DNA of 64,000 nt from Polytrichum commune (Eukaryota > Streptophyta > Polytrichopsida > Polytrichales > Polytrichaceae): contig OX485803.1 of the NCBI GenBank assembly GCA_950295325.1, positions 55,319,554 to 55,383,553 of the forward strand, written 5' to 3'. The notes beneath the pieces were generated by a model. That model ran no database searches and was not told where the DNA came from. It worked only from the letters and a program-made list of their open reading frames with translations. Positions 6,154 through 37,340 of the stretch are shown piece by piece. Position numbers and translations under genes: made by a program. Position 1 is the stretch's first letter, and each line of letters begins with the position of its first letter.

Positions 6154-6922
6154 CTGCTTGTTGGCATGGCAAGTGGTGCTTCGTTAAGTTGATTAAGTTA
6201 CTATTATGTGTATTGATGGTGATGTTTCACATAGAAGAGGGAATCCATGGTTTGGAGTGACTCGGTCATAACTTGTACTTCCTGCAGAGAGGTGTGTGTT
6301 TATAAACATACATTACATATATATATATAAACATAGGTAGACTGGCCTACTTAGTACCTCACCTACCTCTCTAATATTAGGGATGGTGGTGATGTGGTAA
6401 TGACATCACCTTCGTCTCCCCCTGATAACTCTGTCTGGGCGCCGCCTAATACTAATTTTATTCTGTCATATTATGCCTTTAATTAATGAGATACTATTTT
6501 AGTGTGATTGCAGGAATTTGCTAATTTCTGGAAACAATTAATAAGCTCTCTTCTGTCTGTGGCTGGGCCGCGTCACAGAGGCGTTGTGAACGCCTCTCGT
6601 GTGGTGTAAATCCCTCCCGGGGAACTTCATTGGGAACTCAGGGAACTTTCAAAAATCTCACACAAATGTTTTCATGCGATGGGATGAACAATAAACCCCT
6701 TCATGTTGCAAAAATTGATTTTCATCCGTCAAGATTTCATCTGTCATATGTTTTTTTTTTTTGGGGGGGGGGGGGGGTTGCCCGAGCAATTTTGTAGACC
6801 GTAGGATGGGGCTTTGTGAAAGGACGCCTTGGATGTGGTATGCCCACAACCACACATCCTTCATTCACTGCGCCTCAGTGACATGGGTGGTTGGGGCTTC
6901 ACTACACTAAACAATCCTATTA
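6154..6922. other. Intergenic, low-complexity tracts
   Basis: Contains a TA microsatellite near 6318 and a T-run followed by a long G-run at about 6751-6778. No gene or mobile-element terminus is recognised. Confidence 0.5.
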
Positions 6923-7149
6923 CACTCAAGACTCTATAAGTGTTACCCCTATAAGCGTTATAATTTCATATATGCTAAGAAAATTTTACTCCCCTACAAA
7001 AACATAATTGGTAAGACTAGTGAGTGTTATGTGTTAAGTGTTATAACATGCTCTACTCCCTTCTTTATTAATTGCACCTTTATAAGTGTTAATTTTGAGA
7101 AAATCAAGGTAATAATATATGAGAGCATACATTTTAAACATGTAATCAC

Positions 7150-8713
7150 ATTTATCTCATATTCTTTGCGAACAATTCAAAATTGTTGGAGGCACACATG
7201 TGTTCTTTTGATCTTTATTGAGAGGGAGATAGAGGAAGCTAGGTGCTTGGTAGAGGTTGATGAGGTTGCTAATCTACTTCATCAACTGACATTGTTGTCA
7301 TCTGATAGTGAGGTGGGTGACGTGATTAATGCTCATGAATCCCTCAATAATGAGATGAAGTTTGATTTAAACAACCCCTATGGACCTACCGATGAGGAGT
7401 TTTTGGATATGTATTCCTCAGGACATCAAGAAATTGATGTTGATGAGGTTATGGTTGATGTGGTAGAAGAAGTTGTAGGATTTAGGGGCGGTTTACACTA
7501 TGGACCATGAAGTTGGACCAGGGCTCTGCGAGGCAGCTGATTGGCTGTTGAAGTTCTCCCGGGACAACTTTGGTTTACACTAAGGGAAAAATGGCAGAGG
7601 GACCATGGAGGTCGAGGTCCCCAAAATATAATTTTTAAGGCCTAATAAATGCACTGACATGGTCCAACGGGTTTTGCGTTTTAGAGAAATACCATTTCAA
7701 TAAATTTTTAATGAATCTACCTTTTAAGCGCCTTAATTATACCATAGCCCATGAGACATACCAGCACTACCTTGCCCTACCGGCTCACACGTGTTTCACC
7801 AAACAACGCGGGACATCTAGAACTCAAGAATTCAAGTGCAGATTTGTTTTTTTGGTCTACCAAATGTAATGTTTGGAATTTTGGGGCTTGTAATATACCG
7901 TTGGAAAGGTCTTGAAAATACCTTTCCAACGGTATATTACACACCCCAATATTCTTACAAAATGAAGTTGAAAAACAAAAAAGAAAAATCTGTAGTGGTT
8001 TAGTGACTGTAGATCAGGGTAGTCAAAAGAAGTGCAATGGGAAATCTTCTAACATTAATTATCAAAGAATTGAAAATTAGTGTTGAGCAAGGTAGGGTGG
8101 TAACAACATTAAATATAATCAAACACTAAATATCCTATTTAGTGTAGTGACAACACAAGGTACATGTCACATGTACAAATTAAATTGCTCATTTTATTTT
8201 ATTTAAAAAATTTGTTGTGAGAAGATTTGCAAGCCACATCTTCGACACATTTAACAAGAAGTGAAGACAAGTGAAGCCCAAGAGAAGACAAGGAATGATC
8301 AAACTTAATTTTTTTTCAAAATTGCCCTTTTTGGGCATGTATAAAAAAAATTAGCACCTCCACTTTTTGGTGCATGGTCATTCTTCATGGTCCACATTCG
8401 GTTTACACCTAGTGAAGGGCCCATGAACCATGAAAACTAATATTTTAGTAACTCGGACCATGGAAGTCATCCCATGAAGTCGTCCCACGCAAAATAGGCC
8501 TCTTACGTGGGACGACTTCATGGTCCATAGTGTAAACCGCCCCTTAGTGTTGCTGAGCATTCTCTATAGACTTTGAAGAAATACTTTGAACAAAGACCAA
8601 ATGATGCCCTATCACACATCAAGAGCATTTCAGGACTCCAAAAGGAAGTTTCATCTCATCGTTTGGAAGCTTCTTGTCAGACTACTATAGACTCTTTCTT
8701 TCGGTTAGTTTAG
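7150..8713 (+). pseudogene. pogo/Tigger (CENP-B-like) transposase C-terminal remnant, split by a MITE
   Basis: Translation reads TIQNCWRHT, the block that closes the DDE domain of Tigger-type transposases, then an acidic tail with ANLLHQL and PTDEEFLDMY. The frame is broken by the MITE at 7485-8543. After it the tail continues as TLKKYFEQ and QTTIDSFF, matching the usual end of these proteins, and stops at 8711-8713. A TAG also lies at the post-insertion join. The N-terminal DNA-binding and catalytic regions are gone. The family call rests on these C-terminal motifs only. Confidence 0.65.
7485..8543. mobile_element. 1.06-kb Harbinger-like MITE nested in the pogo relic
   Basis: Near-perfect inverted ends of about 28 bp (starting GGGGCGGTTTACACTATGG) are bracketed by TTA at 7482-7484 and 8544-8546. 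Inside are a strong hairpin at about 7888-7951 (arms GTAATATACCGTTGGAAAGG and its inverse), partial duplicates of the end sequence near 7570 and 8395, and a copy of the palindrome-ended repeat family near 8010-8150. No coding capacity. Confidence 0.8.
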
Positions 8714-8961
8714 TTGGAAGAATCTCATCAAGTTACTACTATATAGATTATTTCTTTCAATTAGTTTAGTTGAATTATGTATTATCATTTGTACTTTCAT
8801 TTTATAAAACGTTATGTTCTTCATTTTCAAAAAAATTAAAGTGTTATTTCTATAAACGTTATCAATCATCAGTATGAATTCTATAAGTGTTACTTGTTAT
8901 AATTCTATATATGTTATTTTCTAGCTACTCCCAACCTGTAACATTTATAGAGTCTTGATTG

Positions 8962-9275
8962 TATTGTGGGTCACAATGATTTTCTAGAGCTCATGCTAAT
9001 TGCCAAATTGAGAATCAAGGTGGGTCGCATTGATTTTCACCCCACGCTAAATTTGTAGTAGGAAATCAGCATAGGACATCTAGTTATTTGTTTTTTCTAC
9101 AAAAGTAACATGGGTGATTATTTATTTTATGTAAGGTGTTGGTCTAAAGTCTTCATGAAGGCTTAGGGGGAGACCTAGAGTCTTGAGCCCAAGGTAATTC
9201 CACCTTGAGTAGGAAATTGGTGTGGCTGACAGTAAGTTTCCACCCACACTAATGGGACTATTTAGTGTAGTTACC
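8962..9275. other. Intergenic, nothing recognised
   Basis: Spacer between the pogo remnant and the 0.5-kb direct duplication. No ORF or repeat terminus is recognised. Confidence 0.5.
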
Positions 9276-10660
9276 AAAACCAATAATCAAGGGGAGAGAG
9301 GGGGGGGGGGGAGGGGGACAACAAACAAACAAACAAACTTCCATCGTTGAGTCTAGCTCTATATTATAGATGTATGTAGGACACAGACTCCAAGTTTGCA
9401 ACTATGAAAGCTTTGGCACTTGATATAAGGTAGGTGGGTCTTAGAGCATCTCCACCATTGGGCAGAAAGGCAAGCTCTCGAAATGCGCTTTGAAGGGCTC
9501 CAAGCATGCACTAAATTTTTTTAGGGTGGCACTCCCCCACCGTTACTTGCATATTGGCTCTTCAAGCCGAAAAATTGTCAGGAATATTCCCTATAGTGAT
9601 ATGATTCCCAAAAGTGGCACGATTCACTGAATCGCAAGTGGATGAGGCCCCGGAATGTGGGCGCAGCAAGAGCAACGCTCACCCGCGAGGATAGTGAGTG
9701 GAGCCGGAAGTTTGAAGAGCCCTGGCAATCAAGGCCTCGGTGTTGGGGAGGGGTGGGGCAGGTTTTTCTCCAAGGCCGCGTTAAAGGGCTTGCCAAGTCC
9801 CTTTAACACGGCAGGGTGGAGATGCTCTTAGATGGTTACTTCTTTGGACTGGCCCACTTCTCCTTAAATAAGAAAACACACAATTAGTACAAGATAGTTA
9901 GCAAATCCAAATCCATGTCATATCCTTGTATTTTAAGGAGCTTGCATGAATTTCATAATCATAATCAAAAGTGAAGATTCTTGTGCTCATTAAATGGGCA
10001 TACATGTACCCCACTTACGTTGACTATTGATCTTAGAATAGTTATCATTTTTTTTAAGCACGCAATCTGATCTCTTTTGGGCACATTAAGGTCACCAACC
10101 CATTCCCGACCAATTAGTATATATGTGGTTTAGGTACGATCGAATAAAAAACTCCAATAATCAAAACCAATTATCAAGGTGGGGGGGGGGGGGGGGGGAC
10201 AAACAAACAAACAAACTTCCATCGTTGAGTCTAGCTCTATATTATAGATGTATGTAGGACACGGACTCCAAGTTCGCAACTTATATGCATGAAAGCTTTG
10301 GCACTTAATATAAGGTAGGTGTGTCTTAGATGGTTACTTCTTCGGACTGGCCCACTTCTCCTTAAATTAAAAAAAACACACAATTAGTACAAGATAGTTA
10401 GCAAATCCAAATACAGGTCATATCCTCGTACTTTATGGAGCTTGCATGAATATCATATTCATTATCAAAAGTGAAGATTCTTGTGCTCATTAAATGGGCA
10501 TACATGTACCCCACTTTCGTTGATTATTGATCCTAAAATAGTTATCATTTTTTTAAGCACGCAATCCGATCTCTTTTGGGCACATTAAGGTCACCAACCC
10601 ATTCCCAACCAGTTCAGCAATTTAGTATATATGCGGTTTAGGTACGATGGAATAAAAATT
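9276..10660. repeat. Direct duplication of a ~0.5-kb unit
   Basis: A unit running from CCAATAATCAAGG through a G-run, a CAAA microsatellite, TCTAGCTCTATATTATAG and on to GGTTTAGGTACGAT occurs twice in direct orientation, at about 9276-10150 and 10163-10655. The copies differ by scattered substitutions, and the first has gained a 384-bp MITE at 9444-9827. No gene is seen in either copy. Confidence 0.85.
9444..9827. mobile_element. Tourist/Harbinger-like MITE with GAGCATCTCCACC ends
   Basis: Perfect 13-bp inverted ends GAGCATCTCCACC / GGTGGAGATGCTC are flanked by TTA at 9441-9443 and 9828-9830. The neighbouring duplicate copy has GTCTTAGATGG at the same point with no insert, so the empty site is visible in this window. 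Ends of this kind are common in plant Tourist-like elements. No ORF. Confidence 0.9.
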
Positions 10661-20604: not shown

Positions 20605-20708
20605 ACTCAACCGAATGCTATTTCAATGAATTTCTCTTCACACGAGCCCTCACGATTGATAAACCAACGGTTGTGAGCGTTTGGAGTAGGAGACGATATG
20701 AGACATAG

Positions 20709-20930
20709 TTTTCAACAATAAAATTAAGGACGACACTTGTATGTGAGCGTAGAACGTAGAGCGGAGAGCGGAGAGCGTAGATTTGGAGAGCGGAGAGCAT
20801 AGATGAAAAAAAAATAGCAAACCTTCCAGATAAAAATAGGAATGTTTAAAAAATAGACAAGAATATACCTGGAATATTCCAGAATCTGCCAAAATTAGAA
20901 AAAATTTGGACCTATTTCCGTGGGAATTAT
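20709..20930. repeat. Left inverted-terminal region of the giant MULE
   Basis: Contains GTTTTCA, TATGTGAGCGTAG, a run of GCGGAGAGCGGAGAGC-type repeats, GGAATATTCCAG and CCTATTTCCGTGG. The same blocks appear inverted and in mirrored order near 37207-37331. Indels separate the blocks, so identity is only moderate. Confidence 0.65.
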
Positions 20931-21259
20931 AGGTAATAAAATAAACAAAAATGCCCTGAAATTGAAATGGTCTCACTAAGTTTGGAGACCGCGAGGTGGT
21001 TGAATTGTTAAAACCATGGATGATTATAAGAAAAAATCAATGAAAATGGATTTTCTGAGATTGGTATAATTGAAGAATGAGTCAATCAAAATACAAAGGA
21101 ATCAAAATAATCAACTTCCTTCGTTTTTATTCATCACTTTTCTCTTTGTCTTATATGTGAGTCTACTCTATAGCTTGGACTTTAGCAATTATCGTTTGTG
21201 GCCGAATAGATTATATATTGGACTCATACCCAACATCATTGTATATACACTTGCATACA

Positions 21260-21727
21260 ATGGGTGATGAAAGAGACATGTTTGCTGGATTAAAATGGGA
21301 TAAGGAAATTAGAAGTCTAGGAGATCCTCATATTCCGGTTAATTTATCGCCGGAATTTTCGTTTGCTGCTGGAAATTGAAGTAGTGATGACTACGACCTG
21401 ACTCCATTTTCGCAGTCTACACAAGCATGGAGGTGGAGGACGCGGGAGGAGCAAAAACAACGTGAGAAAAAAGAAAAGAGGCAGGAAGATGTGCCCGAGA
21501 AGGACGCTGATTTGGATGAAGACAAATCGAACGAAACGGAGGAGGAGGTGAAGGTGGAAGGGGAATCTTCAAAGTCTATTTCATTTCGCGAACGGATGAG
21601 AGCCTTGCCGCCGCATCATCTTCCGCTGAAGGATCGAAAAAGAGATAAGACAGTTTCTTATATGGATTTGCTTCGACCGGGTCCACCTTCCTCGGAATCA
21701 TCCAAGAAGTATGCTAAACGAAAATAG
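21260..21727 (+). pseudogene. Small charged ORF inside the MULE, one internal stop
   Basis: From ATG at 21260 (MGDERDMFAGLKWDKEI) the frame runs 156 codons to TAG at 21725-21727, with a TGA at 21377-21379. After the stop it is highly charged: WRWRTREEQKQREKKEKR, an acidic middle, FRERMRALPPHH, YMDLLRPGPPSS and a basic end. I do not recognise the family. It lies between the left terminal repeat and the 3' end of the transposase, converging with it, so it may be a third element-encoded protein. No signal peptide or membrane segment is visible. A regulatory or nuclear role is only a guess from composition. Confidence 0.4.
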
Positions 21728-21888
21728 AGTTGATAGACAAATGATACATTGTAATACGATACTTTGAATGGAATAAACATAATCATTGAGATTATATCTT
21801 TATTATATCAATCAATTATTGCTTCACAAGAGGTCTAGAAATGGACACATATATCATATCCCAATGTATTGCTAGGCTGAGAGGAATT

Positions 21889-24800
21889 CTAGAAAGTAGA
21901 TTGACTCAAGAGACCTTCCTCCATGATGAGTTTGACCTCATTGAAACTAAATGTCGGGGCGTGTATGAACAAATTCACTTCCGCATCCAAATTAGAAATC
22001 TTGACGAAGATGTAATACAGATGCTTACAATTCATATAAGAATTTCGTTTGCGGCCGAACTTGGAAATCATATCCAAGAAGTAGGCGCAGTTGCACTCTG
22101 GAAGAGAACTCACTGTCACTTGGTGGATGGGTGGTTGGGGTTCTGATTTGGACTGCAGTGTGATAATGCAACCAAATCCCGGTTGAGGGATCATAGTTAA
22201 CTTCAGAACAGTCGCATGCATAGCTTCAGCAGAGGCCACCATCTGCCTCTGCTTTGCCGAAGGTGCGCTGCTGGATCGCCGAACAAGCTTGGACAGTCTT
22301 GTGGTAGGGATGAAGTCGGGGTTTTATGGAACACGGATTCGAGACATATCCAGCGGGGTCGCAGAGTTGGTGAAGAGTCGAGTCGGTGTGATGCGCTCCT
22401 TTGGTGGGAGTTGAAAACCTGCGTTCTCAAGCGCACAGATCTCCGAGCGGGCGAGGTTGGTACCAATCTTCACGGGCCAGATTGGGGGAATAGGTGGCTT
22501 CTGGTCATCAGCAGAGAACGGCATGACCCATTTCCGACGAGGGCCCTTGACGCAACGCTCGATGTCGTCTGGACAAAAGACGAAGTCAGTGCGCTTCATA
22601 GATTGGAGTTTGTAGTGATGCCACATACCGGTGTAGGTCGGCGCAGGGACGCTCTTGTTATTGGTGACGATTCTTGCGGTGCACTTCTTCTTTGTGCCCG
22701 CATGATTAGCCCAACAAGACTTCCCAGAGGTATAGGGTATGCGGGCAATATGCCAAAGAGAGACATCTACTTTGGTTTCTTGCACGGCGGTGACACGCTG
22801 GAAACCAAGTCCTGCAGGTGAAGGTACTTGAACCTCTTGTACAGAGGGGGAAAACTCCTCAATGATAGTAGGCAATGTTTCAGGTTGAGAGCGAGTGACT
22901 CGCTTACCGGGGGGAGGGCGAGAGAAGTTCACAGTATCCGGACGGTGGGTCTCGCCATCATCACCAATTGGAGTGTTTGGTCTTCGCTTCTGCGATCCAA
23001 ACACCTCGGCGCCCTCAAGGTGGGGATCGCGAGTGCAAAACTCTTCCCCACCGGGCATGTCAAGCAAGACCTTCTGCAACACTGTGGGGTCGCCAGTACG
23101 CTGAGCTCGACGTTGAGCACCCCTGAGCTTGAGTTCTTCTTTGCTTGGACCGTCTCCGCCAATTCCACCTTTAAGGAACTGGTAGTATGCAACAACTTGT
23201 AAGAAGGCCCGAATGTAGTCGTCCACCGTAGCCACGTATAGATCTCCACCCTTGTTGCCCGAGGCCTGAAGCCACTTGTTGTGGACGGACTCCGCAAGAT
23301 TGCACGACGGCATCTCGGCCAACTGGTCTTGAGTCAGAACCTTTTCCTGATTGGGGAGTGCAGAGGGAGTATTAGAGGGAGCACATAGAGAGGAAACTAA
23401 ATCCAGTAAAAGACAATTATGAATCATGAAGGGGATTTACCAGTTCCATGAAACCACCCCATTGAAGGTAGCGGAAGTGCCAGAAAGCAAGCCATAGCTG
23501 GAGGTGCTTGAGACCGTCCTCACTTGTACAATTCGATGATGCCCACCAAGCCTTGATAGCTAGGTACATAGTCTCCGCCTCTGCTATAGAGGACGCATTG
23601 CGATATTGAAGGCAAAGGTGTCTATGTTGGTCTTGTAACTCATGCTTTATGTAGGATTTCGTATGTTTCTCGAGCGACTGTTTCCAATGGAAAAAACAAG
23701 TGCGCTCACGGCCCTCCATAGGAACTTTGGGATCTCCTGAACCATACACAATGCGCACAGCGTTCCAATTGGCTTGCGCACTGTCCGCCATGAAGCCAAT
23801 AAAGTTAGGATGCGGGATACCGTGGCGGGCCATGACATGGTTGAGGTTCTGCCAGAAGAGCACTTGGGCATCCTTATCCTCCGATTGGAAATCACAACAT
23901 GAAATGGTCATGACCCGTTGATAAGTCCCATCGTAGACATGAGCGGCCATGGTGGTCCACCCTTTGACCCGCTTGACGTGATCGGACATAATCCAGGCGT
24001 TCTCAAGGTCCCCACCCGGTTGCATCCGACGAACCAAATCCACCCCGCTTCCAGGACCAACCTCGGACATCTTGAAGACGAACACCTTGTCGGCATCGTC
24101 ACCTTGTCCTGGGAATTGGTTCCGTTGGACGTAGGCCCAATTGCTAACGCCTCGGAGCTTTGCGATGCCATCCATAACACCGAACCTCCGCAAAAATTTG
24201 AAAGAGGTAACCTTAGATCGAAGGTTTGGGGATTCAACCCTCTACAACTCTCAAACACAGGTTCGAGCTCTGTTAAGGAAAGGAGACGGTGTTTCTCACT
24301 ATTTTCAGAAAGGAGGAACTCACCAACAATGTCCTTGCTGGCTTCAAGGACGATATTGCTGTACGTGGCCTGAGGCGCACGCTCAACGTGCTCCTTGAGA
24401 AGAGCATTGATGCGCTTCCGACTGTCTCTGCAGTCCCCAACCTTCACAGGATGTTGATGGTTTCCGATATGAATGCAGGCCCTTTGGGAGAAATTCTTCC
24501 CATGGACGTAGAAAATATTCGCCTCGCAAAGTGCAATGCATTTGGGAGGCTGTTTGCAGATCCTGCACACAAGAGTAGATCCGGATGGCACAATGCCAGA
24601 GAGAGGGAAAGGCTGAGTAGTGAAACCATCAAATTCCGTGTCGTTGACATGAGAGATACGATGGGCGCGTTGAAGGAAATCACAACAAGTGTTTTGGCAT
24701 TGGAGATGGCCAACACGGGTAGAGGAACGAAATACAAGGCCAACGTCGTTTGTAATGTTGGTGGTTTGAGTCTTCGTCCAAACATGGCCATCATATTGCT

Positions 24801-25542
24801 TGTCCATGCCGTCCATGGACCTGGCCCTGGAAAGAGATGAAGAGACTTCTGGTGGAGGCAGGACAAATAACTGGGTACCATCGAAACGAGGGGGGAGGTG
24901 ATTAACCTCTTGGATTTTGATCTTATCGTAATCTATTTTCTTGAGGACGCTTTTACTACCGGGTATAGAACCTAGACGACGAAGACATTGAACAATAGGT
25001 GGAGGAGGTTTGGACGTAGACGGTACGGAAGGAGATAAAGGAACATAGTGAGAAGGTGAAGGCGTTACAAAGGAATCAGAGGGAAACAAAGGAGGGGAAT
25101 CATGAACATCAGCATTCCTCATAGATACATCTTCAGTCGAAGAATCAGACAAGTCTACAACGTTGTCTATGTCAGGCTCGGTCTTGACACTTACTACCGG
25201 AGGTGTGCTAAAGTCAGTAGTGGAAGATCGAAGAGGAGCATGGAGTTCTGTTGACACTCCCATCCGAGAATCTGGCCAGCCCCAAACCCTATACTTTCCT
25301 GCGCCAAGCTCCCACACTACATTGCCATTGTCAGTTACCTTGGAGGGCTCATGGAATGTATGAACGAGCAATCCAGTATCATTGAAGATCTCACGATCTA
25401 CCCATATTGTATTAACTTGAAGAGAGAACCTAATGCTAAGATGAAGCTCCGAGACAACAACAATACCATGTGCACCAATGGGGAAGAGAATAGGGACATC
25501 GTTGGCATTGGAACGAAGTTCGGCCATTGAGCTGGAAGCCAT
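21889..25542 (-). pseudogene. MULE-type transposase with SWIM zinc finger, disrupted
   Basis: Three blocks on the minus strand. Block 1 (25542-24324) starts MASSSMAELRSN and ends in a Cys/His zinc-binding region (CQNTCCDF, VCRICKQPP, CIHIGNHQHPV), as in FLYWCH/WRKY-like fingers of MULEs. Block 2 (about 24193-23441) is the DDE-like core: VYDGTYQRVMTISCCDF, GFMADSAQANWNAV, CFFHWKQSLEKH. A phase-0 GT-AG intron (23440-23347) joins it to block 3 (23346-21889), which ends in a SWIM finger, CNC-x19-CKH, near 22012-22098. Expected role: cut-and-paste transposase in the nucleus. Defects: TAA at 22326-22324 in block 3, and no phase-compatible splice that I could find between blocks 1 and 2, so a frameshift is likely there. 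A minus-strand TATA-like TTATAAA lies about 45 bp upstream of the ATG. Confidence 0.75.
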
Positions 25543-25863
25543 GAAGGCAAAAAAACAGAAACGTAAATGCACAAAGATGCAAAGATTTATAAGGAAGAAG
25601 AATGGTGAAGACAAACGTTGTGATGTCACCATGTGCATCACCGAAGGAACAGAATTCGAGGAACTAATGTATATAAAAAAGGAGTAGGGGGAGGATGCCA
25701 AAAAGGGAAAACAAGGGACGACTGCCAAAAGAGGGAAACCCTAACCTCAAGCACTGGCAATATAAAGAACAATACAAGCAAAGGAACGAGTTATTATGTG
25801 AATGCGATGCCCTAATAGAAGAGGATAGGAGAGAGACGAGTATTGGGAAACCGGGACGCACAC
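25543..25863. promoter_or_regulatory. Divergent promoter between transposase and ParB-methyltransferase gene
   Basis: The 321 bp between the two start codons carry a TATA-like TATATAAAA on the plus strand at 25670-25678, and a TATA-like CCTTATAAA reading to the minus strand at 25586-25594. The two genes are head to head, which would let one region drive both. Start sites are inferred from the first good in-frame ATGs, 25542 (minus) and 25864 (plus). Confidence 0.5.
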
Positions 25864-26744
25864 ATGAAGGAACGAGGAAATAGTCAAGTCTCCACTGCCG
25901 ATCCTGGAAGAAAGAGAAAGAAAAGAAAGGGAGGCACAAGTTTTAGCAATTCAAAACAGAGGAGACGGAGAGAACTGAGAAAGAAGGAGCAATCCTGTAC
26001 ACAAGGAAGTGAGCAACCAACAGATTTGAGGAAGACGGGCGGAGAGGCAAAGACAGGGACGTCTAGCAGGAACGAGGAACTGGAACGGATAGAGGAAGAA
26101 CGGGAGAAGGGTGGATCACAAGAACAATCGATGGGAGAGAGCGAGCATCGAAGCGATTCCGATTCAAGCGAATATGAGGAGGAGACAAAGGAGGACTCAA
26201 TGGGCACAGTAAGTTTGGTTTAGCGTATTATGCACTAGCCTCAGATATACATTTAGGTAATTTACAAGATGGCATTTAATATTTAGTTATGTAATGTGAT
26301 TCTTCATGACCAACATGTTGAATGTTGAAAGCTCTCTTTTTGTTAAAGTTGGTGAGATGGGGATATACAACCGAACCCTCTCGGAAACGAGAGGGTCAAC
26401 AATTATGCACCACGAATAGGGTATTGGCTAAGCACGAAGTTGTGCGGGGCCGCCACCTCCCAAACATGGCCCATAGCAAGAAGGCTTTCGGCCCATTATA
26501 TTTGGGGGGAAGGTACCTAGGAAATAGAAGAGTTCGAAAATAGATGGAGGTAGTCCACCGTAGCCGACACCAAGGAACCATTGCGGCTAACCTAGTTTGT
26601 CGTTCGGAGAGAGAAGGGAGGAGGAAACCCTTGCCGACAACCTTGCGGTGTAGTGTCGAATGTGGAAGGAGCATCCACAATCCCATAGCTCGGAGAAGTT
26701 CGGCATAGACAGGTTTGATGTTAAAACATGCATTCTGTTTAAAT

Positions 26745-29700
26745 AAGTGGCCATGTTAGAGCTTTTAGATTTGTAGTTGATAAGCAAGGTTCAGATTATG
26801 ACCCTAATAAATGGCCATGCTTGCGGTATCAGATTTGTAGTTGATAAGCAAGGTTCAGATTATGAGCCTAATAAGTGGCCAAGTTAGAGGTTTCAGATTT
26901 GGAGTTGATAAGCAAGGTTCAGATTATGAGCCTAATAAGTGGCCATGTTAGAGGTTTCAGATTTGTAGTTGATAAGCAAGGTTCAGATTATGAGCCTAAT
27001 TAGTGGCCATGTTAGAGGTTTCAGAGTTGTAGTTGATAAGCTAGGTTCAGATTATGAGGGATATAAGTGGCCATGTTTGCGGTTTCAGATTTGTAGTTGA
27101 TAAGCAAGGTTCAGATTATGAGCCTAATTAGTGGCCATGTTAGAGGTTTCAGAGTTGTAGTTGATAAGCTAGGTTCAGATTATGAGGGATATAAGTGGCC
27201 ATGTTTGCGGTTTCAGATTTGTAGTTGATAAGCAAGGTTCAGATTATGAGCCTAATAAGTGGCCAAGTGAGAGGTTTCAGATTTGTAGTTGATAGGCTAG
27301 GTTCAGATTTTGAGCCTAATATGTGGCCATGTAAGAGGGTTCAGATTTCTAGTGTGCAAGTTAATTCCAGATTTTGAGTCTAATTTTGAGGTCAAAGAAA
27401 TAGTTGGACAAGGGGGAAGGGCATCTCGATTCCGAGAGGGTGGTGCAAGAGGGGTTTTAGTGGGCCGTGTTAAGGTATTGGATTTGTAGTTAATGAGCTA
27501 GGTTCAGATTATGAGCCTAAAATGTGGCCACGTTAGAGGGTTCAGAAATCTAGTATGTAAGCTAATTCCAGATTTCCAGTCTAATTTTGAGGTCAGAGAA
27601 ATAGTTGGACAAGGGGGAAGGGCCTCTCGATTCCGAGAGGGTGGTGCAAGAGGGGTTTTAGTGGGCTGTGTTAAGGTATCGGATTTGTAGTTAATGAGCT
27701 AGGTTCAGATTATGAGCCTAATATGTGGCCATGTAAGAGGGTTCAGATTTCTAGTGTCTAAGCTAATTCCAGATTTTGAGTCTAATTAGTGGCCATGTTA
27801 GAGGTTCCAGAGTTGTAGTTGATAAGCAAGGTTCAGATTATGAGCATAATAATTGGCCAAGTTAGAGGTTTCAAATTTTGTACTTGATAAGCTAGGTTCA
27901 GATTATGAGGAAAAGAAGTGGCCATGCTTGCGGTATCAGATTTGTAGTTGATAAGAAAGGTTCAGATTATGAGCCTAATTATTCGCCAAGTTAGAGGTTT
28001 CAGATTTGGTCTTGATAACGGAGGTTCAGATTAGGAGGGATATAAGGTTCAGATTTTGAGCCTAATATGTGGCCATGTAAGAGAGTTCAGATATCTAGTG
28101 TGTAAGCTAATTCCAGATTTTGAGTCTAATTTTGAGGTCAAAGAAATAGTTGCACAAGGGGGAAGGGCCTCTCGATTCCGAGAGGGTGGGGATAGTGGGA
28201 TTTTTGGGGGCCAAGTGAGAGGTTTCAGATTTGTACTTGATAGGCTAGGTTCAGATTTTGAGTCTAATTTTGAGTTCAAAGCAATATTTGGACCGGGGGG
28301 GGGGGGGCTCTCGTTTCCAAGAGGGTGGGGTAAGAGGGGTTTTAGTGGGCCATATTAGTGGTTTCAGATTTGTAGTTAATGAGCTAGGTTCAGATGATGA
28401 GCCTAAAATGTGGCCATGTAAGAGGGTTCAAATTTCTAGTGTGTAAGCTAATTCCAGTTTTTGAGTCTAATTTTGAGGTCAAAGAAATAGTTGGACAAGG
28501 GGAAGGGCCTCTCGATTCCGAGAGGGTGGTGTAAGAGGGGTTTTAGTGGGCCATATTAAGGTATCAGATTTGTAGTTAATGAGCTAGGTTCAGATTTTAG
28601 GCCTAAAATGTGGCCATGTTAGAGGGTTCAGATTTCTAGTGTGTAAGCTAATTCCAGATTCTCAGTCTAGTTTTGAGGTGCACTAAATATTTGGATAGGG
28701 TGGGGGGACCCTCTCGATTCCGAGAGGGTGGGGATAGTGGGGTCTTAGTGGGCCATGTGTAAGGTTTCAGCTTTGTATTTGATAAGCAAGGTTTTGATTA
28801 TGAGCCTAATAAGTGGCCATATTAGTGGTTTTAGATTTGTAGTTAATGAGCTAGGTTCAGATTATGAGCCTAAAATGTGGCCATGTAAGAGGGTTCAGAT
28901 TTTAGGTGTGTAAGCTAATTCCAGATTCTCAGTCTAATTTTGAGGTCAAAGAAATAGTTGGACAAGGGGGAAGGGCCTCTCGATTCCGAGAGGGTGGGGT
29001 AAGAGGGGTTTTAGTGGGCCATGTTAAGGTATTAGATTTGTAGTTAATGAGCTAGGTTCAGATTATGAGGCTAATATGTGGCCATTCTAAGAGGGTTCAG
29101 ATTTCTAGTGTGTAAGCTAATTCCAGATTTCGAGTCTAATTTTGACGTCAAAGAAATAGTTGCACAAGGGGGAGGGGCCTCTCGATTCCGAGAGGGTGGG
29201 GATAGTGGGATTTTTGGGGGCCAAGTGAGAGGTTTTAGATTTGTACTTGATAGGCTAGGTTCAGATTTTGAGTCTAATTTTGAGTTCAAAGCAATATTTG
29301 GACCGGGGGGGGGGGGGGCTCTCGTTTCCGAGAGGGTGGGGTAAGAGGGGTTTTAGTGGGCCATGTTAAGGTGTCAGATTTGTAGTTAATGAGCTAGGTT
29401 CAGATGATGAGCCTAAAATGTGGCCATGTAAGAGGGTTCAAATTTCTAGTGTGTAAGCTAATTCCAGTTTTTGAGTCTAATTTTGAGGTCAAAGAAATAG
29501 TTGGACAAGGGGAAGGGCCTCTCGATTCCGAGAGGGTGGTGTAAGAGGGGTTTTAGTGGGCCATATTAAGGTATCAGATTTGTAGTTAATGAGCTAGGTT
29601 CAGATTTTAGGCCTAAAATGTGGCCATGTTAGAGGGTTCAGATTTCTAGTGTGTAAGCTAATTCCAGATTCTCAGTCTAGTTTTGAGGTGCACTAAATAT

Positions 29701-30400
29701 TTGGACAGGGTGGGGGGACCCTCTCGATTCCGAGAGGGTGGGGATAGTGGGGTCTTAGTGGGCCATGTGTAAGGTTTCAGCTTTGTATTTGATAAGCAAG
29801 GTTTTGATTATGAGCCTAAAAGTGGCCATATTAGTGGTTTTAGATTTGTAGTTAATGAGCTAGGTTCAGATTATGAGCCTAAAATGTGGCCATGTAAGAG
29901 GGTTTAGATTTTAGGTGTGTAAGCTAATTCCAGATTCTCAGTCTAATTTTGAGGTCAAAGAAATAGTTGGACAAGGGGGAAGGGCCTCTCGATTCCGAGA
30001 GGGTCGGGTAAGAGGGGTTTTAGTGGGCCATGTTAAGGTATTAGATTTGTAGTTAATGAGCTAGGTTCAGATTATGAGGCTAATATGTGGCCATGTAAGA
30101 GGGTTCAGATTTTAGGTGTGTAAGCTAATTCCAGATTCTCAGTCTAATTTTGAGGTCAAAGAAATAGTTGGACAAGGGGGAAGGGCCTCTCGATTCCGAG
30201 AGGGTGGGGTAAGAGGGGTCTTAGTGGGCCATGTGTAAGGTTTCAGCTTTGTAATTAATGAGTTTGGTTCAGATTTTGAGCCTAATGTGTGGCCATGTTA
30301 GAGGGTTCAGATTTCTACTATATACGTTAAGATCAGATTATGAGTCCAAGTTTTAGACCCTCTCGGAAACCAAAGGGTGGGTGTGAGGGGCCCAGGTGGA
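26745..30400. repeat. Satellite-like tandem array filling intron 1 of the ParB-methyltransferase gene
   Basis: Built from a ~64-bp unit (GTGGCCATGTTAGAGG, TTTCAGATTTGTAGTTGATAA, GGTTCAGATTATGAGCC) and a longer ~200-bp unit that adds TTTTGAGGTCAAAGAAATA and the palindrome CCTCTCG-N4-CGAGAGG. From about 28050 to 30080 a higher-order unit of about 1.02 kb is repeated: 28056-29070 closely matches 29078 onward. Open frames inside are by-products of the repeat. A related palindrome with a GAAA loop lies just before the array (26376-26395), and a degenerate one at its far end (about 30356). Confidence 0.9.
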
Positions 30401-32329
30401 GTTCTTTGTTGTCAATAGTGGATTCTGATTTGGAGATATAGTGAATAAGGGGATTTTTCTTGGAATCGACATGGTGGGTCATCTAGGATTACTGGGGCAG
30501 GTTGGAGGTTTCTAATTTTGCAAAGACTATGCTTTGTTGTGTTTTCTAATGTCTTAAGGTGTATTCTGTGCATGCAGGCATCGGAGTCTTTGGGTCTTAC
30601 TGTAGCACGGGTGCAATACATGGCGGATGGGGTTGTTATATTGTCGCCTCCTGAGGCTAGCCATGCGGCTTTGGATGACATCTCACAAGAAGAGGTGTTT
30701 GATTCGTTCATCTGATACAAGTGTTCTTGTATTGTATCAATGCTGCATTGACATTCTGGGTTTAGAGTTCTTTTCTTATGTTTTCTTTCTCTTATGTTGT
30801 AGATTGATGTTCCGGCTATACCCGACTGCATAAGACCTCTTGCTGAGTCGAATCCAGCTGAAGCAGAGTTAACGATTCGTAGATCGCAAAAACAAGACTC
30901 CAACACCATGATTCAGCGGGTTCGATTCAAGCCTCTAAGGAAGTCTCGTTTCTCAATTCCATTGTGTCGGTTGCGGACTCTTCCTCTTGTTCGGCCAATC
31001 AACGACGTTGATGTTTCTCGTTTGGAGAATGAGTTTGTGATGGGGTATCGTGATGGTGACCGAGCTATGTACGTCTCGGCATACAACAACCTCGATGAGC
31101 CTCTTGATGTCTCCGATGACATCAAGTCCTCCTGGAGTCCATTATGGCAGGAGGCCAATGCAGAGTTTGATGCCATACTCCAAAAAGACTCCGACCTTGC
31201 TTACTTTGTTGGCAAAATGTTCTTCGTGTGGGAAGGGAACCATCGATTGACAGCTTGGTGGAGGCATATCAACAATCATCACCCGTTGGACAAAAATTGG
31301 CATATATGGGCTGATTGTATTGTGGTGGATGCAAGAAATTGCACCGCTCTCTTTCTTAATGCTATGAATGACATCAACTGGTGAGTTCAACATTTAATGT
31401 TGTTGATCGTCTCTTTTGTTTGTTCGCATTTTCTCCTCTAACATTTTATTTGTCTAGGTCCACGGAGCATGACCATGTTAAGGACAACCTCCCCGCCAAG
31501 TTACTTCGCATTCGCACGTTTGGAAAGATGAGGCTAGAGGAGTTCAAAGACCTCCTTTCCGTTTCGGACTACAAGATGTGTGAGTCCAAGATGGAGAAGA
31601 GTCCTACTTGGTATTCCCTGACATTAGATGTCTTCGTCAAGTTCTTATACAAGGTAAATTTTGTGTACATTTTCCACTCCCATCCTTCTCCCACGTCTAT
31701 GTGCGCTTCTTATCCTTATTTTTGTTTTTTTCAGAGGGAGATATCCAACGCGGCTGATACCGCGGCAAGGTTATATCGTGAGGCTACTCCGGAGGCTCAG
31801 AGAACTGCTACCGATATTTGGAATGCTATGACAAAAGCCCAAGATAGGTTGATCAAAACCATTCGTTCTCGGAACTTTGAGAAGTTCATTTCCGTTGCCC
31901 ACAAGGACAACGGTGATGATTTCTTCAACGAGGTGTCTCTCCTATCTTTGTTTTTTGGTTTAGTTTTTCATCCTCCTATGAATTTTGCCGTGCTTGTTTT
32001 ATCTTTATTTTACTTATCTTTCTTCTATGTGGCAGATTGACCGTCATTTCTCCGCTTTCCTGGTCACTGATATGACAATTGAGAAACTTCAAAAGGTGGC
32101 CACCACACATGTAGATTCCCACTTCAAGGCCAAGTGGCTACGTTGGTGGAACTCTCCTCCCGAGGTCAAGGATAAGAATAGATTTCCCTCCGATCTCCCT
32201 CTTAGGGAGAAAGTCCTCGACAACTGGCTCAACAAAGCTTCTTTCTGGGCTCAGGTGCATCCTCAGTATTTTGACTCCGTTTCTTCCTTTCCATTCTACA
32301 TGTGGGATTCGAGTGGGTCATGCCAAGGT

Positions 32330-34330
32330 TTCGGATTTCAAGGGGATAGTGGGGTATTAGTGGGCCATGTTGAGGTTTCGGATTTGAATTAGATAAGCTA
32401 AATTCAGATCATGAGTCGAATAAGTGGCCAGGTTGATGTCTCAGATTTCTAGTTAATAAGCTAAGTTCAGATTCTCAGCCGAATAACTGGCCTGGTTAAG
32501 GTTTCAGTTTTCTAGAATATAAGCTAAGTTCTGATTTTGAGTCGTATAAGTGGCCATGTTTGAGGTTTCAGACTTCTAGTTGATAAGCAAGGTTCAGATT
32601 ATGAGTCTCATAAGTGGCCAGTTTGAGGTTTCAGATTTGTAGTTGATAAGCAAGGTTCTGATTATGAGCCTAATAAGTGGCCAAGTTAGAGGTTTCAGAT
32701 TTGTACTTGATAAGCTATGTTCAGATTTTGAGCCTAATATGTGGCCATATTAGAGGGTTCAGATTTCTAGTATGTAATCTAATTCCAGATTTTCAGTCTA
32801 GTTTTGAGGTCCACTAAATACTTGGCCAAGGGGGGGGGGACCCTCTCGATTCCGAGAGGGTGGGGATATTGGGGTTTTTGTGGGCCATGTGTAAGGTCTC
32901 AGATTTGTAGTTCATAAGGAAGGTTCAGATTATGAGCCTAATAAGTGGCCATGTTAGTGGTTTCAGATTACTCGTTAATAAGCTAGGTTCAGATTATGAG
33001 CCTAATAAGTGGCCAAGTTAGAGGTTTCAGATTTGTACTTGATAAGCTAGGTTCAATTTTTGAGCCTAATATGTGGCCATATTAGAGGGTTCAGATTTCT
33101 AGTATGTAATCTAATTCCAGATTTTTAGTCTAGTTTTGAGGTCCACTAAATATTTGGACAGGGGGGGGGACCCTCTCGATTCCGAGAGGATTAGGTAAGT
33201 GGGGTTTTAGCGGGCCATGTTTAAGGTTTCAGCTTTGTATTTGATAATCAATGTTTTGATTATGAGCCTAATAAGTGGCCATGTTAGAGGGTTCAGATTT
33301 CTAGTATGTAAGCTAATTCCAGATTTTCAGTCTAATTTTGAGGTCAAAGAAATATTTGGACAGGGGGGGGGGGCCTCTCGTTTCCGAGAGGGTGGGGTAA
33401 GAGGGGTTTTAGTGGGCCATGTTAAGGTGTCAGATTTGTAGTTAATGAGCTAGGTTTAGATTATGAGGCTAATATGTGGCCATGTTAGAGGGTTCAGAAT
33501 TCTAGTATGTAAGCTAATTCCAGATTCTCTGTCTAGTTTTGAGGTCCACTAAATATTTGGCCAAGGGGGGGGGGGACCCTCTCGATTCCGAGAGGGTGGG
33601 GATAGTGGGGTTTTAGTGGGCCATGTGTAAGGTCTCAGATTTGTAGTTAATGAGCTAGGTTCAGATTATGAGCCTAATAAGTGGCCAAGTTTGAGGTTTC
33701 AAATTTTTGGTTGATAAGCTAGGTTCAGATTATGAGGGAAAGAAGTGGCCATGTTAGAGGTTTCAGATTTGTAGTTGATAAGCAAGGTTCAGATTATGAG
33801 CCTAATAAGTGGCCAAGTTAGAGGTTTCATATTTGTACTTGATAAGCTAGGTTCAGATTATGAGGGAAATAAGTGGCCATGTTAGTGGTTTCAGATTTGT
33901 AGTTAATAAGCTAGGTCCAGATTATGAGCCTAATAAGTGGCCAAGTTAGAGGTTTCAGATTTTTAGTTGATAAGCTAGGTTCAGATTATGAGGGAAAGAA
34001 GTGGCCATGTTAGAGGTTTCAGATTTGTAGTTGATAAGCAAGGTTCAGATTATGAGGCTAATAAGTGGCCAAGTTAGAGGTTTCAGATTTGTACTTGATA
34101 AGCTAGGTTCAGATTATGAGGGAAATAAGTGGCCATGTTTGCGATTTCAGATTTGTAGTTGATAAGCTAGGTTTAGATTATGAGTCTAATATGTGGCCAT
34201 GTTTGAGGTTTCAGATTTGTAGTTGATAAGCTAAATTCAAATTTTTAGCCTAATAAGTGGCCAGGTTAAGGTTTCAGAGTTCTAGTTAATAAGCTAAGTT
34301 CATATTTCTAATGTCTTAAGGGGCCATGTT
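32330..34330. repeat. Second tandem array of the same family, in intron 6
   Basis: The same ~64-bp and ~200-bp units as in intron 1 fill the 2.2-kb intron 32255-34437. Palindromes CCTCTCG-N4-CGAGAGG recur near 32842, 33374 and 33579, with a damaged copy near 33172. G-runs of 8-11 precede several of them. The array ends about 100 bp before the splice acceptor. Confidence 0.9.
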
Positions 34331-37206
34331 AGAGGTCTATGTTGTCAAAATTGAATTTTGTTTTTCATATATGGTTCAAGTTAGAGTGGAGTATGTTATC
34401 AAGTACCATCCCCTTACTATTTTCTTTGTTGTCATAGTTGGAGAAGGGGGTTGAGGGTGAGATAGCTTCATTTGAAAATGAGTGTTCCGTTGAAATCGAT
34501 TGGAGTTCCGCGGAGGATATTTATCAACCGGCCAATTATGTTGAGCATTGGAGGCTGAATCTTTGGGACAAGGCATTTCTGGTTTATTTTGACGACAAGG
34601 GAGATTTGAAATTTATCAAAGGCCTTGATCTCATGGATTTTGAGGAAGGCCCCATAGCAATCAAACGCGTCGCTTACCGGTAATATTTTGAGTTTTCTTT
34701 TATTTCATATAGTTTTTGTTTCATTTCAATCCCGCCACCTTTTTTGTTTATGATGTTCTTCATTTTACAGGTTCATCCACCGTGAGCTCGTTGTGAAGAA
34801 TGCTTTGCCTTCTTCGTGCTTGCCAACCTTCCTTGTAGATTGGGTCGATGTCAACTCCGATCTTTGTGTGTATACGCCCGTGCAAGTTTCCAAGTTTTCG
34901 GAGTCTCACTTGCAGGCTGGGGGATGGTACTTGGATTGTTCTGGAGGATTTGTGCCTGAGGTAGAGAAGCCTCTTTTTTCCACCCTTGTGAGTAGTGCTC
35001 CCGAGGTGACCTTTGTCCCCTTTGAGGAGCCCGACATTGTTGAGCTTCCTCCTCCACCGCCCAAGGCACCAAAGGGAAAGGGAAGAGCTAGGAATACCGG
35101 CACTCAATCAACTCGGTCTGCCTCAAAGACCCTTGTTCAACCACCCACCCTTTTACAGAGTCCACCTAGTACTCCCTCCGTTGCTCCATCAGCTGCCCCC
35201 TCTATTACTCCATCCGCATCTCGTCCACAAACTATTGCTACTCCTTCACACAGTGGCACTTCTCTACTCTCCTTGCCTCGCAAGAGGAAGGCCGCCCTCT
35301 TGGATACGAGTGCCACCTCTTCGGATTCCCCTACCACGCTTGCCCTCATCGAAAATGTGGACATGGTACAACTCATGCTCGATTCCGACCTTGCAGGAGG
35401 TCCCCTCCCGGCATATACGCGCATACAAGAGTTCATTGCCAAGGTTTGTATGTTTTCTTTTGGCATTCATCAGACTCCTTTCCGTTTGGTTTGCTTTTGT
35501 TTTTCCTTCTCTATTTTTTCTCATGAATTTTTCATTGCAGGCCGGGGAAGGTCGCTCCCGTGTGAACACCTCCTCTACATTTCACAAGGGCCTCGATTTA
35601 CTCTTCGTGGACATTCCTGAAAATTTGCCGGTGCCCAACATCTCCACGGATGTTCCTGAATGGAACAAGCTCCATGATTCTTACTATGAGTGTCTTTTTG
35701 CATTTGCAAAATCTAACCTCTATGATCATGGCGTCCTTGTCCTTGTCCATTGTGCGAGTGCAAGTGTTTCTAGGATGGTTTTCGATTGGGCACACACTTA
35801 CGACTTCTACGTCGCCGAAGATTGGTTCGGAATGGCTGATTTGGACCTCCAATCTCCGGTAGACCCCTCTGGAGTGGTAAGCAACTATCCATCTCCTAGT
35901 CCATTTTTGTTTTGTTTTTCATTTTACTTATTCCGATTCTTATGAAATCGTTGTCATTTTTTCAGACTCGCAAATTCAATATCAAGGTTCTTGTTCGTGC
36001 TAACTCCGTTCTGAAAGTGCGACCGGAGGCCGCCCAGGAGTATGGCTACTACCTCCAGTGAGATGGATGGTTGAATGCTTTCACCGATGAGAAGAGCCAG
36101 ACAATGCGCAGTGATGGGATACCCTGGAGAGGTGCTCGCGAAAAGCATCAAGTTTTTTTTTCTATCCTTTTTGCTACTCTCACCGATAAGAATGATGTTA
36201 TTATGGACTGGCAATGTGGTGTAGGTGGTTCGATTACAGCGTGTCGCTCCATTGAGCGGCATATTGTGGCCCTTGAGAGTGACCCAGTGATTTTTAATGC
36301 GATACTACTCCCCATGCGTGAAAACCAACCTTCGCGACCTCCCCGCTCAAATGCCACACCGTCCACCTCTATGTTTGATCCTCCTAAGAAGATGACCAAA
36401 CGCGCATTCGGTTTTCTTTGTGCGTAAGTTTTATTTCTATGTTTTCTCATATTTACGTTCTTGTCATTTTCCCATCTTTGTGTGTTATTTTGTTTCTAAT
36501 CTTATTGCTTATTGGTTCAGAGCGCCAAGGGAGAACGCATGTATGAGTTCGAGTCCTTCCAAGACGTTCGAGCTCCCAACCTATGCTGCTAGTTTTGCCA
36601 ATCTTTTAGCGGAAGCTCCGTCTCCACCTCCTAGTCGCATCCGGCCTTTCAACAAACTAATAGAGGATTTTCTAGACATAGAGGCCGAGGAGGGTGAGGA
36701 TAGTGATAGACATGGTAGTCCTAGTTCTTGACTACACCTCGGACCTCCATTTTGTTTGTATTGATTTTACTTTATAAGTTTATTTCTTCAATTTTTATGT
36801 GGCTATTGCAAACCTCATTCAATCCCTTATTGAAGTTGGTTGGTGTTTGATTTCAATTCTCTAGATAGGTTGGGTGGACGGGTTGAGTATACTTTGAAGG
36901 TTGTCTACTTTAGTTGTATTTGAGAGATGCTAAGGTTGTGAGTGACTTTGAATGTTTGTGTTGAACTTTAACTCTTGGCCACATTCCATACCGCTTGAAT
37001 GTTTGTGTAAGGCTTAACTCATATGTTCAATTGATGACGTAAGCCCTAATTTAATATAAACGTATTCGAAACCTAGACTATAAGATGTTTGATAACAAAC
37101 ACTATCTTCCACGCCTATAGGTTCGGTTGGTTCACCGACCAAGGTTCGGTTATTATTTACACGGGAATGGGGTGGCTTTTTCGACAAATTGAAGACAAAC
37201 TATCAC

Positions 37207-37331
37207 TAAATTCCACGGAAATAGGCACGACTTCCCCTAAAATATTCCAACAAATTTGAAAATCTCCGCTCTCCAATCTCCGCTCTCCGAGCTATGCTCA
37301 CATACTTGAGTTTCCCATAAAATTAATGAAA
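37207..37331. repeat. Right inverted-terminal region of the giant MULE
   Basis: Carries, inverted relative to the left end, CCACGGAAATAGG, AATATTCC, two CTCTCCNNNCTCCGCTCTCC-like tracts and GCTCACATAC. Spacing between blocks is shorter than on the left. Beyond about 37340 the match stops. Confidence 0.65.
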
Positions 37332-37340
37332 ACAAAAAAC

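Follow-up and report, generated by a model that had tools for sequence, protein, structure and literature searches.

We analyzed a window of 64,000 nucleotides from the moss Polytrichum commune (contig OX485803.1, positions 55,319,554 to 55,383,553) that holds one copy of a large, old family of DNA transposons. The element spans window positions 20728-37316 (16,589 bp) and encodes a transposase and, divergently, a spliced partner gene. Across the family the partner gene is a standing companion of the transposase. We consider it moderately likely that its product, a probable ParB-like module joined to a methyltransferase fold whose active site is altered, is a self-recognition protein acting VANC-like on the family's own copies. 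The ParB-like module would bind palindromes that lie in introns and the promoter region of its own element, the protein would gather on copies of its own family, and there it would counter silencing or control expression, as VANC does in the VANDAL elements of Arabidopsis.

A conserved partner gene opposite the transposase

The genome searched comprises 408 Mb in 64 contigs, seven of them large. Contig C8 has a complete rbcL, whose best PDB matches are enzymes of land plants, and a PF00142 match interpreted as chlL, a gene that flowering plants lack; together they point to a non-flowering land plant. The genome yielded at least 150 matches to the ParB-like exon (the best 150 of 1256 candidates scored), at least 169 to the methyltransferase-like exons (the best 150 of 1077 candidates scored) and at least 141 to the transposase core (the best 141 of 1772 candidates scored). 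A divergent partner exon lies within 20 kb of 94 of the 141 listed transposases and within 40 kb of 112, and both partner exons lie within 20 kb of 58. When the transposases were shifted at random 200 times, a mean of 1.5 had a partner, with a maximum of five. Chance pairing of the two genes was ruled out by this control and by the conserved layout. The same layout is found in the C2:65.84M element, whose transposase is 55% identical. The initial annotation, made from the letters of the window, had called for a search for other copies; both genes recur together in many of them, with the spliced partner gene opposite the transposase as it had described.

In the window the partner gene lies on the plus strand. 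We infer that a stretch at 25864-26220, which contains a basic segment resembling a nuclear localization signal and has tblastn matches in L108, L109, L110, L113, L119, L122 and L124, is exon 1; its end is likewise placed tentatively. Exon 2 (30579-30692) was delimited by splice sites read by eye. The exon with the ParB-like region (30803-31379, containing GNHRLTAW) was identified by homologs in the genome search and by profile comparison. Splice sites were also placed by eye for the exons at 31458-31653, 32036-32254, 34438-34679 and 34771-35443 (a linker region), for all of which homologs were found, and for those at 31735-31932 and 36521-36731, the last exon. The methyltransferase-like part comprises exon h (35541-35876), which holds the motif IV position with DIPEN for DPPY and was placed by homologs and profile alignment, and an exon at 35966-36423, which holds the motif I position (DWQCGVGGS...ALESD) and was placed by profile alignment. 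The latter exon carries an in-frame TGA at 36059-36061 in the window copy.

The partner gene is under purifying selection. For the ParB-like exon, the ratio of nonsynonymous to synonymous substitution (dN/dS, by NG86) was 0.09-0.25 in nine of ten unsaturated pairs and 0.55 in the tenth, near-identical pair, with four more pairs saturated. Exon h gave 0.12-0.21 in three of four pairs and 0.57 in a near-identical pair, one further pair being saturated. The transposase core gave 0.07-0.08 in two pairs, and three were saturated.

Sequence comparison strongly supports homology of the C-terminal half to beta-class N6/N4 DNA methyltransferases, with motif IV before motif I. A profile of 11 diverse copies aligned across the greater part of the domain with five beta-class enzymes of phages (probability 98.7, hhalign score 111), and 60 column shuffles scored at most 21. 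In this alignment DIPEN falls opposite DPPYG, and the DWQCGVG region opposite the S-adenosylmethionine (SAM) motif. Single copies matched Pfam N6_N4_Mtase in two of seven cases (best E 0.047) and a PHROG methyltransferase in all seven (best E 0.00096). A profile search of the PDB returned DpnA (5hek, E 0.0036), and tblastn against phage sequences gave 37 records with a best E of 0.003. Like DpnA and the phage methylases L058-L062, the family combines the IV-before-I motif order with a collinear profile match. Unlike them, it has lost the aromatic residue of DPPY: among 37 fetched copies carrying exon h, hand-picked from the match lists, this position is glutamate in 32, lysine in three and aspartate in two, and never tyrosine, phenylalanine or tryptophan. 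Motif I also varies, its FxGxG-type SAM position reading CGVG or CGTG in some lineages and PSTG or AATG in others; the first glycine is missing from several lineages (DWSPSTG, DCTAATG). The alteration of motif IV points to a different role, not to decay, because the surrounding D-x-P-E-x-L-x-V-P is strongly kept. The AC....RH..ALE region behind motif I is conserved. Ordinary methyltransferase chemistry is doubtful from these motifs. Instead of being an ordinary adenine or cytosine amino-methylase, this half of the protein probably serves as a platform for docking or for binding a cofactor.

The N-terminal half is probably a ParB-like DNA-recognition module. All six aligned lineage representatives have GNHR at the position of the Gx[HR]R box (GERR or GHRR in ParB/Spo0J), and the weak ParB match is collinear and spans this box. 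With an insertion removed from the query, a trimming chosen after the first results, the ParB score was 22.3 (E 0.003) and was reached by none of 100 shuffles. The candidate palindromic sites described below are a further likeness to ParB/Spo0J and its parS palindromes; the sequence similarity itself is near noise. By tblastn the ParB-like part found three apparently irrelevant records among phage sequences, and none of 18 and none of 53 pattern matches in viral contigs was confirmed as a relative. The two domains were modeled poorly by AlphaFold (mean pLDDT 40.5 and 41.7) and structure searches with these models were empty, so no conclusion was drawn. The ParB plus beta-class layout seen in the initial annotation is firmly backed in its methyltransferase part and faintly in its ParB part.

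A working amino-methyltransferase, writing N6-methyladenine or N4-methylcytosine on the element, was also considered. Such activity has been suggested in the available text on the brown-algal Sola1 relative (PMC12477816), and it would agree with the homology of fold across the entire domain and with the conserved region behind motif I. We find it unlikely given the replaced aromatic in all 37 copies and the lineages without the first glycine of motif I. The DNA-modification-type protein suggested in the initial annotation is thus left unsupported as a working enzyme. It could also be asked whether the element picked up the methyltransferase-like gene from its host, in the manner of a Pack-MULE, without any role for it, since Mutator-like elements (MULEs) often capture genes. 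The gene pair and its orientation are constant over deep divergence and dN/dS is well below 1, which leaves this explanation hardly credible; host-gene capture was rejected on the conserved layout, the divergent linkage and dN/dS.

Palindromic arrays and the ParB-like module

Tandem arrays lie within the partner gene. Array 1 (26370-30560), with 13 TCGN4CGA sites and the palindrome CCTCTCGATTCCGAGAGG, is probably in the first intron, because the stretch taken as exon 1 recurs in seven other loci. Array 2, with four sites, is in the intron at 32255-34437. Both arrays were delimited by repeat and site counts. When five arrays were compared pairwise by BLAST, seven of ten pairs gave no match (window-B, window-C, both A' arrays against B and C, and B-C). 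The two A' arrays are alike, and the window array matches them only in pieces of up to 44 bp. The feature common to the lineage arrays is a palindrome with the core CGGNNCCG and lineage-specific arms: CCTCTCGATTCCGAGAGG in the window, CCCTCTCGGTTCCGAGAGGG in A', TCTCGGTTCCGAGA in C and GAGGCCTCGGATCCGAGGCCTC in B. The window palindrome variant has lost one G of the core. Against an expectation of 0.06, the window contains 14 exact copies of CTCGRWTYCGAG, every one of them inside the element arrays. The palindrome sites sit in mid-element introns, away from the ends.

At least four TCGN4CGA sites were found in 19 of 23 array regions, two of which are marginal (L113, where one of the four sites is unrelated, and X91). 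The remaining regions have none (L114, L123) or one (L117, L124). For comparison, the 47 kb of the window outside the element hold three such sites (1.5 expected), and two non-array element ends hold zero and one. L124 carries 16 copies of CACGGATCCGTG instead and X97 carries GGGTTCGGGACCGAACCC, and for this reason the wider common core is taken to be CGGNNCCG. A different repeated palindrome, CGAGTG-n-CACTCG, is present six times in the L117 array. CpGs are retained in the palindromes but have disappeared from much of the remaining array. In the window array, 27 of 61 CpGs fall in 286 of 4191 bases occupied by palindromes, and CpG observed/expected outside them is 0.23; in the C2:14.78M array, 52 of 72 CpGs are in palindromes and the ratio outside is 0.15.

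The arms of the palindrome differ between classes of the ParB-like module. The classes were defined by a tree of ParB-like exons, in which class 2 (L002, L050, L051, L055 and L056) has a support of 97, and class 1 (the window and other close lineages) is split from class 2 plus outgroups with a support of 95; L054, although a member of class 1, shares only 67% identity with the window. All 11 class-1 elements that have at least three sites carry TCTCG-N4-CGAGA and no class-2 site. All four array-bearing class-2 elements (C1:34.5M, L118, L119 and L120) carry CCTCG-N4-CGAGG and no class-1 site. Arm type and ParB class therefore agree in every one of the 15 elements that have at least three sites, a count that leaves out the class-1 elements L114 (no site) and L117 (one site). 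Paired by position, class-1 palindromes accompany transposases that are 98-100%, 91% and 84-86% identical to that of the window, and class-2 palindromes accompany transposases that are 96%, 95% and 83% identical to it. Arm type thus follows the ParB-like module, not the transposase type.

Comparison of individual elements gives a similar picture. Between the window and B, identity is 90.2% across the transposase half, 65-69% in the ParB-like exon and those after it, and 80.6% for 34790-36226; their arrays have nothing in common. Protein identities of the window to B and to C (C5:18.25M) are 96% and 86% for the transposase, 90% and 62% for exon h, and 65% and 74% for the ParB-like exon. In small trees of six to eight elements, the transposase grouped the window, A' and B apart from C (supports 83 and 98), and the ParB-like exon was poorly supported (58-94), less well than in the larger tree that defined the classes. 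Synonymous sites of the ParB-like exon are saturated (proportion of synonymous differences, pS, 0.88) beside a transposase dS of 0.25, which speaks for block exchange rather than fast protein change. It is possible, if somewhat short of probable, that the ParB-like module and its own palindromic array form a swappable self-recognition cassette, exchanged as a unit apart from the transposase and methyltransferase halves. Such exchange would allow a lineage to take on a new identity and evade rival copies or silencing by the host, and the system would be a second, independent VANC-like invention, assembled from a ParB of bacterial type and a pseudo-methyltransferase.

The palindromes could instead be regulatory or subterminal binding sites of the transposase, leaving the accessory protein some other task. 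Transposase and palindromes share one element, and the transposase has a cysteine-rich region. Sites far from the ends, and arms that switch with the ParB class while the transposase remains 96% identical, make this distinctly improbable. A purely structural origin, as hairpins or by-products of recombination or array expansion that no element protein reads, would suit their position in fast-evolving tandem arrays. That a specific core is common to arrays otherwise without detected similarity, and that palindrome CpGs are retained amid a CpG-poor background in two of four measured arrays (less so in the other two), makes it very unlikely in our judgment.

Several results weigh against the self-recognition reading. 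No Pfam match was found in any of 21 ParB-like exon members; PHROG matches were scattered over unnamed families in at most two of the 21 (best E 0.0089, in one member), and PDB matches of the ParB-like part were unrelated (E 0.55 or worse). Shuffled controls attained the score of the untrimmed profile against 12 ParB cores in 1 and 4 of 60 cases, and that of six more diverse copies against the ParB profile in 1 and 2 of 60. Among the arrays, L114 and L123 have no palindrome array, X91 has only four sites where shuffles have up to three, and L117, outside the 15-element count, pairs a class-1 ParB exon with a single class-2-like site. The B and C arrays (64 of 205 and 74 of 167 CpGs in palindromes) are less CpG-depleted outside the palindromes, at 0.50 each. 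The match between ParB class and palindrome may rest on very few independent swaps. A transposase alone in complete elements had been named in the initial annotation as evidence against a two-gene element; among the matches listed, 29 of 141 transposases have no partner within 40 kb, and no complete partner-less element was established. The 10 kb beside the C7:40.43M transposase (L081, 78% identical) hold no clear partner exon, and L080, of the same transposase clade, has one. Binding, control of expression and effects on methylation are predicted from sequence.

Ends, transposase and other features of the family

The ends of the element were set by alignment to other copies. A perfect 10-bp target duplication, ATAAAATTAA, flanks it on the left (20718-20727) and on the right (37317-37326). 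The inverted arms at 20716-20784 and 37260-37328 match over 69 nt with 75% complementarity, confirming the paired imperfect inverted ends reported before; trimmed by copy alignment, they give terminal inverted repeats at 20728-20784 (plus strand) and 37260-37316 (minus strand). Those of the C1:34.5M copy are 78 nt long with 86% complementarity. An exact target duplication of 9-10 bp is present in eight of nine compared copies, the window counted in. The C1:36.4M copy, with its left end located, has an exact 10-bp duplication; for the ninth copy, C3:55.7M, no left end was found in the piece fetched. The unity of the element, only inferred in the initial annotation, is upheld by the ends common to the copies, by these duplications and by the partner exon in one orientation beside 94 of the 141 listed transposases. 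The copy alignment proposed there as a check did fix the ends, but the duplication here is 10 bp long, not 9 bp. The family has moved fairly recently, because end pieces of the C2:54.2M, C1:47.9M and C4:30.6M copies agree to 98.7-99.8% with the C1:34.5M copy. The copy in the window is defective, given the TGA in the partner gene, an interrupted transposase frame and a stop in a third open reading frame (ORF).

The transposase gene (21889-25740, minus strand) is interrupted where the C1:34.5M copy has long open frames. Read by eye, it has a cysteine-rich region, a DDE-like core (23417-24241) and a CxC...CxH motif near its 3' end. The SWIM-like CxCxnCxH pattern (21889-22323, minus strand) was spotted by eye only, and Pfam SWIM gave no match. 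Scans of the transposase ORFs against Pfam gave no MULE or SWIM match, nine single window ORFs had no Pfam match, and a search of the PDB with the transposase found none. Weak Pfam matches such as FERM_M and Enterotoxin_a were under the cut-off and were taken as chance. By visual reading, none of 142 PF10551 matches in the genome overlaps the window transposase. Against a MULE transposase profile with four same-genome references, the score of the transposase was reached by 55 of 60 shuffles, and that of the core only by 7 of 60. A target duplication in the 8-11 bp range and terminal inverted repeats, by which MULEs are recognized, are both present. The MULE-type transposase claimed in the initial annotation thus fits the ends and the target duplication but is without confirmation from the Pfam and profile tests; the MULE-like assignment rests on the former.

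The third small ORF (21260-21724, plus strand; 826-1290 in L001) has 155 codons, with one in-frame stop here and none in L001. It is acidic, lies at the transposase end and is conserved, with tblastn matches in nine fetched loci and the window and 87% identity between lineages A and B. Elsewhere in the genome, L090-L094 and similar matches form a high-copy methyltransferase-like lineage with open frames of 428-512 aa, many rows of which are equal in score and length, suggesting recent bursts. Many of the partner-gene matches listed, often with stops, fall at about 41-59 Mb of C4. The matches at 11.63 and 11.79 Mb of C2 have identical scores and matching spacing, and look like a segmental duplication, not two insertions. 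In L080 a reverse-transcriptase-looking frame of 1165 aa (minus strand, 6405-9899 of the reverse complement) adjoins the divergent partner-gene copy.

Relation to known systems

The layout of the partner gene, described in the initial annotation as best known from phages and bacterial mobile DNA, also occurs in transposons of algae. In Sola1-1_Ec32, a 21.5-kb Sola1 element of the brown alga Ectocarpus, a ParB-plus-methyltransferase gene lies opposite the transposase, and green and red algal cases are cited in the available text of the same paper (PMC12477816). Like these accessory genes, compared here by description only, the moss gene is divergent and joins a ParB-like domain, here faintly backed, to an amino-methyltransferase domain. 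The green and red algal cases are reportedly those of Iyer 2011 and Petroll 2025, known to us through the citing paper. Sola1-1_Ec32 differs from the moss element in its transposase superfamily, Sola1 by name, and in its brown-algal host, and the available account of it mentions neither array palindromes nor a change in motif IV. Cytosine methyltransferases occur in retrotransposons, again as a methyltransferase-type gene borne by a transposon; enzyme and element classes are unrelated to those here. The parS sites of ParB also differ from the palindromes of this family. In the main text of a Mutator survey (PMC6446971) ParB, methyltransferase and moss are all absent, and neither ParB nor methyltransferase occurs in a 2026 review of gene capture (PMC13317346). 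Judged by title and the start of the abstract, nothing else relevant to ParB-methyltransferase transposons of plants or mosses was found in the literature covered, which leaves out preprints and most subscription papers.

VANC21 of Arabidopsis binds the 9-mer YAGTATTAY, which has accumulated through tandem repeats in introns and upstream regions; VANC motif and protein change together, and hypomethylation by VANC has been demonstrated (PMC5735166). Unlike the palindromes here, the VANC21 motif is a 9-mer, and no word beginning palindrom- appears in the available text of that paper. The moss family strikingly resembles VANDAL elements in having an accessory gene in a MULE-type element, a short motif amassed in intronic and upstream tandem repeats (the intron position here following from exon homology) and a motif that changes with the protein, a likeness of arrangement and not of compared proteins. 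VANC is not known to be a ParB or methyltransferase protein.

The cargo is of a kind known from algal transposons (available text of PMC12477816). What is added is a land-plant host, an altered active site and co-varying palindromes. ParB-methyltransferase transposon genes thus extend from algae to a land plant, in an element with 10-bp target duplications. For a protein of this kind the palindromes are specific candidates as binding sites, none being described in the available part of the published algal account. Ordinary base methylation may not be needed for the methyltransferase half to function, and the element might tag its copies or shield them. Since the type of palindrome varies with the ParB-like module, it becomes possible to test how proteins of this kind locate the element that encodes them.

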